From contig CAMLIA010000150.1 in NCBI GenBank assembly GCA_946479905.1, positions 1 to 11,343 of the forward strand: a stretch of 11,343 nucleotides of DNA, read 5' to 3'. Each line of letters begins with the position of its first letter. The stretch's first letter is position 1. The stretch comes from an uncultured Frankiales bacterium. Its GTDB lineage: Bacteria; Actinomycetota; Actinomycetes; Mycobacteriales; SCTD01. The position numbers were made by a program, and so were the translations under genes. This document shows, piece by piece, positions 9,280 to 11,343 of the stretch. Below the pieces are notes generated by a model that saw nothing but the letters and a program-made list of their open reading frames with translations, was not told where the DNA came from and made no database searches.

Positions 9280-11343
9280 CAGGACTCCTTCGCGAGACGG
9301 ACGAGGTCGCCGTGCTGGGCGGCGAGGTCGGTGCGGACCGCGGCGCCCCGGGTGCGGGTCGGGACCCACACCGCCCCGTCCGGCAGGTCCGCGACGACGA
9401 GCGGCAGCGTCAGGCTGCCCCGGTCGGTGCTGACCGTGATCGGGTCGCCGTCGACGGCGCCGAGGCTCGCGGCGGTCGCGGCGGACAGGTGCAGGCGCGG
9501 CGCGCGTGCCGTCCCCGCGAGGTGCGGCTCCCCGTCCTGCAGCGACCCGTCGTCGAGCAGCAGGTGCCACGTCGCCAACCGGTACGTCCTCACCTCTGAG
9601 CCTGACTCAGGGGCCACTTCTGAGGACGTTGCGGGGTCGGCCTCCGCTTGCGTCCTCATCCCTGAGCCTGAGTGGGGGGCCACTTCCGAGGACGCAAGGG
9701 AGGTGATCTCCGCGCGGGCGGCGTCGATGTCGGGCAGCCCGATCGGGCGGTCCATCTCGTCGGCCAGCACGTGCAGCACGCGGTGGTCCGACAGCGCCCC
9801 GCTCGTGCGCAGCACGGCCTCGAAGGGCCGGGCCCGGCCCTCCCAGTCGAGGTAGGTGCCGCTCTTCTCGACGGCGGCCGCGACGGGCAGCACGACGTCG
9901 GCCCGGTCGGTCACCGCGGAGCGGCGCATCTCCAGCGACACGAGGAACTCCACGCCCTCGAGGGCGTCGAGCGCGAGCGCCGGGTCGAGCAGGTCGGCCG
10001 GGTCCACGGCGCCGACGAGCAGGGCCTTGAGCTCCTTCGCCTTCGCCGCGGTGAGGATGGCGGTGACGTCGCGGCCGGGCTCGGCCGGTCCGCCCCAGCC
10101 GACGTCGGTCCCGACGGCACGGCCGCCGGGCAGCAGGGTCGGGAGCGCGCCGGCGTCGACGGCACCCCGCTCACCCGCGCGCCGGGGGATCCACGCGAGG
10201 TCGGCGCCGGTGTCCTCGGCCAGCTTCGCCGCGGCCGTCAGGGCACCGGGGACGGAGGCGAGCCGCTCGCCGACCAGGATGACCGAGCGGTCGTCGAGGG
10301 CGGCGCGGTCGAACGCGTCGAGCGCAGCCGTCTCCTCGCCCGGCAGCGTCTGCACGAGGGTCGCGGACAGCTTGGTGGCCCCGGTGCTGCGCAGCGCGGC
10401 GATCGTCGTGACGCGCTGGCCGTGCTTGCGGACCGCCTTGCGCAGCCGCAGGAAGACGATCGGCGACTCCTCCTCGGGCTCGAACCCGACGAGCAGCACC
10501 GAGGGAGCCGCCTCGAGGTCGGCGTAGGTCAGCTCGAGGTAGCGACCGGCGACGTGCGCGCCGAGGAACGCGAGCTCCTCGTCGGAGGCAGGACGCGTGC
10601 GGGCGTCGATGTCGTTGGTGCCGAGCGCGACGCGGGCGAACTTGCTCCACGCGAACGCGTCCTCGACGGTGAGCCGGCCACCCGGCAGCACGCCGACGCC
10701 GCCCTCGTCACGCGCCATCGACAGGCCGCGGGCGGCGAGGTCGAGGGCCTCGCTCCAGGACGCGGGTCGCAGCACGCCGTCCTCGCGGACCAGCGGCGTC
10801 GTGATGCGGTCGGGCTGGGTGGCGTAGGTGAAGGCCCACCGGCCCTTGTCGCAGTTCCACTCCTCGTTGACCTGCGGGTCGTCCCCGGCCAGCCGGCGCA
10901 TGACCTTGCCACGCCGGTGGTCGGTACGCAGTGCGCAGCCGCTCGCGCAGTGCTCGCAGACCATGGGCGACGACACGAGGTCGAACGGCCGGGCGCGGAA
11001 CCGGTAGGCCGCGCCGGTCAGCGCGCCGACCGGGCAGATCTGCACGGTGTTGCCGGAGAAGTAGGACTCGAACGGCGACTCCGTGTAGACCGCCACCTGC
11101 TGCAGCGCGCCGCGCTCGAACATCTCGATGAACGGGTCACCGGCGACCTGCTGGCTGAAGCGGGTGCAGCGCGCGCACAGCACGCAGCGCTCCCGGTCGA
11201 GCAGCACCTGGCTGCTGATCGCCAGCGGCTTGGGGAAGGTGCGCTTGACGTCGTGGAAGCGGGACTCGCCGTCGCCGAACGCCATCGACTGGTTCTGCAG
11301 GGGGCACTCGCCGCCCTTGTCGCAGACCGGGCAGTCGAGCGGG
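9279..11343 (-). CDS. nuoG: NADH-quinone oxidoreductase subunit G (NuoG), 5' end cut by window edge
   Basis: Large Fe-S subunit of the complex I peripheral arm, carrying electrons from the NADH module towards the quinone module. About 687 residues are visible; the N-terminal [2Fe-2S] domain and the N5 histidine lie past the right edge. Numbering from the first whole codon, cluster motifs appear in order: the N5 cysteines in DCPVCDKGGEC (residues 3-13), the N4 motif CVLCARC (53-59) with its fourth Cys at 103, and an N7 motif CxxCxxxC-x27-C (129, 132, 136, 164). A molybdopterin-oxidoreductase-like fold follows, then a MopB C-terminal-like domain near the end. The linker before that last domain (about residues 550-587) holds two in-frame copies of a palindromic repeat, listed separately. 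The TGA stop shares its A with the nuoH ATG. An internal ATG at 11285 is not the start, because N5 coding sequence runs through it from upstream. Confidence 0.97.
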   Translation of the reverse strand, partial: PLDCPVCDKGGECPLQNQSMAFGDGESRFHDVKRTFPKPLAISSQVLLDRERCVLCARCTRFSQQVAGDPFIEMFERGALQQVAVYTESPFESYFSGNTVQICPVGALTGAAYRFRARPFDLVSSPMVCEHCASGCALRTDHRRGKVMRRLAGDDPQVNEEWNCDKGRWAFTYATQPDRITTPLVREDGVLRPASWSEALDLAARGLSMARDEGGVGVLPGGRLTVEDAFAWSKFARVALGTNDIDARTRPASDEELAFLGAHVAGRYLELTYADLEAAPSVLLVGFEPEEESPIVFLRLRKAVRKHGQRVTTIAALRSTGATKLSATLVQTLPGEETAALDAFDRAALDDRSVILVGERLASVPGALTAAAKLAEDTGADLAWIPRRAGERGAVDAGALPTLLPGGRAVGTDVGWGGPAEPGRDVTAILTAAKAKELKALLVGAVDPADLLDPALALDALEGVEFLVSLEMRRSAVTDRADVVLPVAAAVEKSGTYLDWEGRARPFEAVLRTSGALSDHRVLHVLADEMDRPIGLPDIDAARAEITSLASSEVAPHSGSGMRTQAEADPATSSEVAPESGSEVRTYRLATWHLLLDDGSLQDGEPHLAGTARAPRLHLSAATAASLGAVDGDPITVSTDRGSLTLPLVVADLPDGAVWVPTRTRGAAVRTDLAAQHGDLVRLAKES
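9284..9290 (-). promoter_or_regulatory. nuoH ribosome binding site
   Basis: AAGGAGT on the minus strand, ending five bases before the nuoH ATG (9279-9277). It sits inside the last codons of nuoG and fixes the nuoH start at the TGATG junction, although the open frame continues upstream. Confidence 0.75.
9584..9629. repeat. 46-bp palindromic element, copy A, within nuoG
   Basis: The ends are a perfect 9-bp inverted repeat: ACGTCCTCA (9584-9592) and TGAGGACGT (9621-9629). Inside, CCTCTGAG (9593-9600) can pair with CTCAGGGG (9606-9613) around a 5-nt loop, with one G-T mismatch, leaving a 7-nt asymmetric bulge (9614-9620). Copy A matches copy B at 38 of 46 positions by hand alignment. On the minus strand it is read in frame by nuoG as TSSEVAPESGSEVRT. 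No stop codon falls in that frame, while the other two minus-strand frames contain TGA. It lies in the NuoG linker just before the C-terminal domain (LATWHLLLDDG onwards). I infer an inserted palindromic element; whether it occurs elsewhere in the genome cannot be seen here. Confidence 0.8.
9650..9695. repeat. 46-bp palindromic element, copy B, within nuoG
   Basis: Second copy, 66 bp (22 codons) from copy A, so both are read in the same nuoG frame; a 20-nt spacer separates them. The terminal inverted repeat is 11 bp when the flanks are included: CTTGCGTCCTC (9647-9657) and GAGGACGCAAG (9688-9698). The outermost pair of the 46-bp unit is G-C here and A-T in copy A, a compensatory change. The inner hairpin seen in copy A is largely lost through substitutions at 9672, 9674 and 9675. 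It encodes ASSEVAPHSGSGMRT in NuoG. Origin by insertion followed by local duplication, or by two insertions, cannot be told apart from this sequence. Confidence 0.8.

Follow-up and report, generated by a model that had tools for sequence, protein, structure and literature searches.

The window, that is the whole 11,343-nucleotide stretch of DNA analysed here, carries nuoG on its minus strand (9279..11342). The 5' end of this gene lies beyond the window, and the available frame reads as 668 amino acids. Two palindromic units lie in this reading between the Molybdopterin domain (residues 160-496) and the Molydop_binding domain (residues 592-645). The first-pass annotation had described them as 46-bp units at 9584-9629 (copy A) and 9650-9695 (copy B), identical at 38 of 46 positions and starting 66 bp apart, and all these values were recovered. 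The terminal inverted repeats also agree with that description, being uninterrupted over 9 bp in A (ACGTCCTCA) and over 11 bp in B (CTTGCGTCCTC). The units stand in frame in the linker ahead of the last domain of NuoG, where the nuoG strand encodes the peptides TSSEVAPESGSEVRT and ASSEVAPHSGSGMRT. The minus-strand frame of nuoG is free of stops through both units, and copy A is open in two plus-strand frames as well, as had been claimed.

In the register of the repeat family described below, both units are 50 nt long. Copy A then extends over 9582..9631 on the minus strand, around the core that encodes TSSEVAPESGSEVRT in nuoG. Copy B, which has the canonical ends TTGCGTC/GACGCAA, extends over 9648..9697 on the minus strand and encodes ASSEVAPHSGSGMRTQ in nuoG. 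Between them lies the 16-nt spacer of a direct doublet (9632..9647), a length shared by 8 of 20 doublets, the window's included.

The best pair of 46-mers at most 300 nt apart in the window matched at 39 positions, against a mean of 29.2 and a maximum of 32 in 60 dinucleotide shuffles. A search of the window for palindromes with 10-bp arms and a gap of 28-33 nt gave two matches, both of them registers of copy B; the same search in 15 shuffles gave a mean of 0.13 and a maximum of 1. No third copy was found in the window at up to three mismatches to the pattern common to A and B. A much looser scan of the window returned ten more weak candidates with 7-8 of 9 pairs, which are probably due to chance. 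Elsewhere in the window, the nuo genes and a polyprenyl-synthase-like gene (430-1410) are followed downstream by a NuoB-like reading frame (50-394, minus strand); these names were given by eye from the translation.

The nearest relatives of this NuoG were found in G001, a MAG labelled Frankiales (87% identity), and in four genomes of the same family as G001, namely G008 (86%), G007 (84%), G009 (78%) and G002 (78%). The element was recognised in proteins by a home-made peptide regular expression, fitted to examples seen beforehand. This signature was present in 12 of 121 NuoG rows, which comprised the window, counted among the 12, and the best 120 of 8000 scored homologues. The first-pass annotation had set its reading against a repeat shared by all NuoG orthologues; the other 109 rows are without the signature. 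Over the 115 rows measured, the median linker length is 30 residues, and the ten measured rows with the signature have linkers of 40-62 residues (43 in the window). Eight listed rows without the signature also have a long linker, of 39-55 residues. In-frame elements are present in NuoG of the window, of G001, where the element is decayed, of G007 and of G009, and the palindromes in the linker DNA of nuoG in G007 and G009 have arms unlike those of the window.

Dispersal and structure of the unit

Copies were counted in the genomes of relatives; in the window's own species only the nuoG doublet was seen. The proposal of a dispersed palindromic family was borne out by copies behind many genes in these relatives. 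The sample of the order comprised 397 genomes, including the 24 genomes of the family. The pattern TTGCGTC-N34-38-GACGCAA (48-52 bp in total) occurred at 112 places in 13 of the 24 family genomes and nowhere in its reversed-pattern control. The other 11 family genomes, which include the nearest ones, G001 and G008, contained no exact-ended copy. Outside the family, exact ends gave 12 single matches in the 373 other genomes of the order, against 8 for the control. Three of these 12 have well-paired stems (L345, L347 and L348, in G226, G102 and G042), and are possibly distant kin or independent terminators. With these three lying outside it, two of them 10 nt and 21 nt downstream of a stop, the family cannot be sharply delimited.

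A covariance model was built from 11 copies, and 150 candidates were scored per genome, both strands being counted. It gave at least 54 matches in G007 and at least 58 in G009, and 0-9 mostly weak matches in each of the other genomes. G001 had four; the three listed lie in NuoG, in the chelatase gene and, as a window-type copy, behind a gene. A pattern taken from the linkers of G007 and G009 matched at six places, including nuoG of G009, in two of the 24 genomes, with no match for the control. At gathering scores, a search of Rfam returned no match. In a de novo count of palindromes in 0.78 Mb of G009, the commonest arm words were TGCGTCT, GCGTCTG and CGTCTGC, each in 8 of 210 clusters, and one more GTTGTCAGC palindrome was counted. 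The palindrome at G009:C78:77754, which is open across a coding frame, was set aside as probably a chance occurrence.

Window-type patterns had no match in the assembled contigs searched and none in the 24 family genomes, because the arms differ between species. Window-type copies (GAAGTGG...CAGGCTCAGG) numbered nine in G007 and two in G001, some of them in doublets 66 apart, and the window-type core pattern was found at 15 places in 6 of the 24 genomes (control 1). The single window-type matches in G005, G009, G011 and G016 have three mismatches and no such arms, and appear to be chance matches. With GCGTCCNC arms, only G007 was clearly above the control (39 versus 5); the corresponding counts were 7 to 4 in G001, 8 to 5 in G009, 6 to 2 in G008 and 1 to 2 in G002. 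Searches with looser arms were noisy outside G007.

The unit measures about 48-51 bp and has the consensus ends TTGCGTC/GACGCAA and a GC-rich loop. In the model matches GCGTC/GACGC is nearly constant and the outer two pairs are variable. Only 19 of 42 G007 matches have T-A as the outermost pair, so the search itself partly dictates the exact ends. The CGTC positions are paired in 41 of 42 model matches in G007 and in 26-28 of 28 in G009; the outer stem is paired through position 10-12, around an interior of about 25 nt. Stem letters are genome-specific yet paired, and after TTGCGT read for example CCTC, CCGC, CTGC, CATC or CCGG. Among 79 typed copies, stem pairs 8, 9, 10 and 11 are Watson-Crick in 89, 99, 87 and 62%, respectively, compared with shuffle means of 39, 49, 39 and 30%, although copies within one genome are related and the shuffles thus overstate the independence of stem pairing. 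The loop sequence is alike within G007, and likewise within G009. Many intergenic window-type copies have TAG where nuoG has TCG or TCA, and one window-type doublet contains stops when read through. Hence, the nuoG frame is not open in every copy. The copies of G015 form a regular subfamily, most of them with an additional hairpin, GTGGCTC/GAGCCAC, nested within the outer stem.

Positions, doublets and in-frame copies

Many copies lie directly behind genes. Of the 73 copies 48-51 bp long in G007, G009 and G001, a coding stop was at most 20 nt away in 42 and at most 45 nt away in 47, whereas random places in the same loci gave 8 and 13 of 365, respectively. In 0.78 Mb of G009, in which 756 genes were called with a home-made codon model, 12 of the 14 copies scoring above 25 bits lie at most 20 nt behind a called stop (hand count; one overlaps another called gene). 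The expectation is about 2% (756 x 20 nt in 779,191 nt). Some copies lie between convergent genes, and the two orientations relative to the gene are about equally common (21 to 19 among the 40 copies that could be oriented). G-U and A-C pairs in the direction of transcription numbered 23 and 17. These counts give no clear RNA signal, and selection on RNA is not favoured. At one intergenic site common to G009 and G010, elements with different stems each lie 4 nt behind the stop of genes that are 82% identical.

Twenty of 22 pairs were credible doublets, 11 of them from G007, and the other two pairs were discarded as chance matches. The gap is 16-18 nt in 11 of the 20 doublets, 25-27 nt in six, and 38, 47 and 55 nt in one each. 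As judged by loop identity, 19 of the 20 are direct, and their spacer sequences vary. Other spacings also occur, such as a pair 59 nt apart in G007. With respect to helical phase, the gaps of 27 doublets, 12 of which have a gap of 16 nt, gave a resultant length of 0.82 at 10.5 nt. With distinct gaps counted once this value fell to 0.59 (10 values), a weak signal, so that helical phase is only a hint. In G004, four tandem copies (L150, 1501-1935) are spaced by 127, 127 and 130 bp, an arrangement that departs from the usual doublet.

The suggestion that the element can be carried in open frames holds for three unrelated proteins, NuoG, a chelatase and a protein of G007, in which the in-frame copies use the same reading frame. 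In G001, a magnesium-chelatase-like protein contains ASSEVVPSSGADQRTQ in frame in a linker. The signature is present in 25 of 120 rows made up of the best 120 relatives of this protein, and is doubled in 14 of them, at a distance of 22 residues in nine, 33 in four and 37 in one. Across the 241 NuoG and chelatase rows it never falls in the first 40% or the last 5% of the protein. The third protein, apparently a coiled coil by eye and with no Pfam match above the cut-off, carries an in-frame peptide related to that of G007's own NuoG copies. The chelatase linker DNA contains palindromes that differ per genome at about one place (G001, G024, G017, G009 and others). In G024 and G017, the stems in this linker differ from the stems listed for the dispersed copies of each genome (5 of 25 and 5 of 10 places seen).

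The RAYT-type transposase that the first-pass annotation had advised looking for did not turn up. Its domain (Y1_Tnp, PF01797) was found in none of the 24 family genomes, for which completeness is not given, and the same search was positive in 5 of 14 control genomes. Around 92 loci there was no recurrent transposase or other neighbour gene that explains the spread; clustering of the neighbours yielded nothing beyond AMP-ligase-like and dehydrogenase-like genes (by eye) and some orthologous neighbours. Reading 75 flanks by eye revealed no clear target duplication and no T-run behind the stem, and no empty site was seen at base resolution. Recent mobility is only hypothetical, since NuoG, the chelatase and one intergenic site are occupied correspondingly across species.

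Relation to described palindromic repeats

In-frame palindromes are best described from Rickettsia. The closest printed description that we found is that of the CGTC-tagged REPs (Di Nocera et al. 2013, PMC3733652), which, in the available part of that text, include the Rickettsia elements RPE-4 and RPE-6, and in which part the word actinobacteria was not found. The repeat studied here resembles these REPs as described there in several ways: CGTC lies near the end, the palindromes are short, most copies lie less than 20 bp behind ORFs and some within genes, and no dedicated transposase is evident. For REP-like repeats with a CGTC core, the same excerpts state that no mobilising enzyme is known. 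In contrast, CGTC-REPs are described there as having an unpaired CGTC at one end, whereas here CGTC is paired in the stem and GACG stands at the other end. Their stem of 8-9 bp and loop of 4-5 nt also differ from the stem of about 10-12 bp and the interior of about 25 nt found here. Furthermore, they form head-to-head dimers in that account, and the doublets here are direct (19 of 20).

Other known systems show a similar mixture of likeness and difference. REPINs and their RAYT enzymes, in the portions of PMC3116915 at hand, share with the present family that the repeats are palindromic, occur repeatedly outside genes, prefer certain doublet spacings and fall into distinct sequence groups. However, REPINs are described there as inverted doublets linked to RAYT, whereas the family has direct doublets and the Y1 domain was not found in its 24 genomes. 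GTAG-REPs and REPINs bear a GTAG tag according to the accessible passages of PMC3733652 and PMC6006769, while the ends here are TTGCGTC/GACGCAA or near to it, with no GTAG. The Rickettsia palindromic elements are likewise inserted in frame in unrelated genes with a tolerated added peptide, as outlined in the available sections of a review of MITEs (PMC10969869). Compared by description, those elements are about 150 bp long and occur in Rickettsia, and the present units are about 50 bp long and often lie behind genes. REP-like palindromes have also been predicted by RepRanger in three Actinomycetota genomes, at 2,283-5,512 per genome (PMC12306157). Since predicted REPs are counted there, palindromes in actinobacteria as such are not new. 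The accessible part of that paper presents a general prediction of hairpins in three species of other genera and names no family with these ends.

The family works like REPs and RPEs, but lacks tested defining features of GTAG-REPs, REPINs and CGTC-REPs. No published report of this repeat was recognised in the open-licence literature, including a search with either heptamer in which the top matches were judged by title, a search that does not prove absence from print. We regard the family as a real, lineage-specific variant of REP-like repeats that is apparently undescribed.

Origin and persistence of the repeat

Taken together, it is very probable that the units in the window form a direct doublet belonging to a REP-like dispersed palindromic repeat that is concentrated in one actinobacterial family. 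Those members of this host family that carry a name here are assemblies from metagenomes with the label Frankiales or Frankineae. The in-frame position in NuoG would also be expected if a 66-nt protein segment had been doubled in the linker long ago, with the palindromes as a by-product, and the eight listed rows with a long linker but no signature agree with such an old duplication. We consider this origin highly improbable, because in the relatives similar sequence is found in intergenic DNA as well as in two unrelated proteins, and intergenic doublets keep the same gap without any constraint of frame. The terminal inverted repeats and the dispersed copies would fit a classical MITE moved by the transposase of an insertion sequence. 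However, no clear target duplication being seen by eye in the 75 flanks, the lack of a recurrent transposase near the 92 loci and the unit length of only about 50 bp make this an improbable origin.

The crowding of copies behind stop codons (42 of 73 within 20 nt), the location of some between convergent genes and the strength of the hairpins would suit intrinsic terminators or hairpins for 3'-end processing, the intragenic copies then being accidental. Such functional gene-end signals seem unlikely, as no T-run follows the stem in the 75 flanks, copies lie mid-operon inside nuoG, orientation is even and there is no clear G-U excess. Moreover, the loop is alike within G007 and within G009, a likeness that termination does not need. 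It is also rather doubtful that the doublets are paired sites for a putative DNA-binding protein, in which both palindromes would face nearly the same side of the helix and the stems would drift along with the protein. The clustering of gaps at 16-18 nt and at 25-27 nt, the variety of spacer sequences, the helical phase over all 27 doublets, and the near-constant ends with genome-specific stems would all fit paired sites, but the phase is weak with distinct gaps counted once, pairs also occur at 59, 127 and 130 nt, and many copies are single.

Under the preferred reading of a REP-like dispersed repeat, the copies would have spread as passengers by means of an activity acting in trans. Behind genes, the hairpins may be neutral, or may influence translation or the ends of mRNAs, effects that have been reported for the REPs of E. 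coli. There, according to the available part of PMC12306157, ribosomes are stalled by REPs at most 15 nt from the stop, and by likeness the present repeat may affect translation too. Copies in nuoG and the chelatase gene would persist because one frame is open and yields a Ser/Ala/Glu/Gly/Pro-rich peptide in a flexible linker, and translating ribosomes would keep the hairpin open.

The weakest step of this mechanism is that the insertions would be old and their letters replaced later. Comparison of the sequences suggests as much, since corresponding sites are occupied by elements with different stems. The chelatase stems of G024 and G017 run counter to such replacement, as they mismatch the dispersed stems listed for those genomes, and repeated insertion at preferred sites is an alternative for which we still allow. 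A bolder proposal, to which we give little credence, is that the repeats are rewritten in place. A lineage-specific trans factor, or conversion, would impose new stems genome-wide, while sites such as gene ends and the NuoG and chelatase linkers keep the element. Letters and enzyme peptides would then change together, and paired units on one helix face would be the substrate. The odds of rewriting are lowered by the same mismatch in the chelatase linkers of G024 and G017.

With its near-constant ends, its covarying stems and the same linkers occupied across species, this compact repeat of one family offers a tractable system for studying how such repeats spread. The same system also lets one ask whether rewriting in place occurs, and how such repeats are accommodated by proteins. 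Besides the family described here, the chelatase linker of G009 (L304) has two occurrences of a second type of palindrome, GAGTTGTCAGC/GCTGACAACTC, and a similar one lies at G009:C39:132889 in the 0.78 Mb read.
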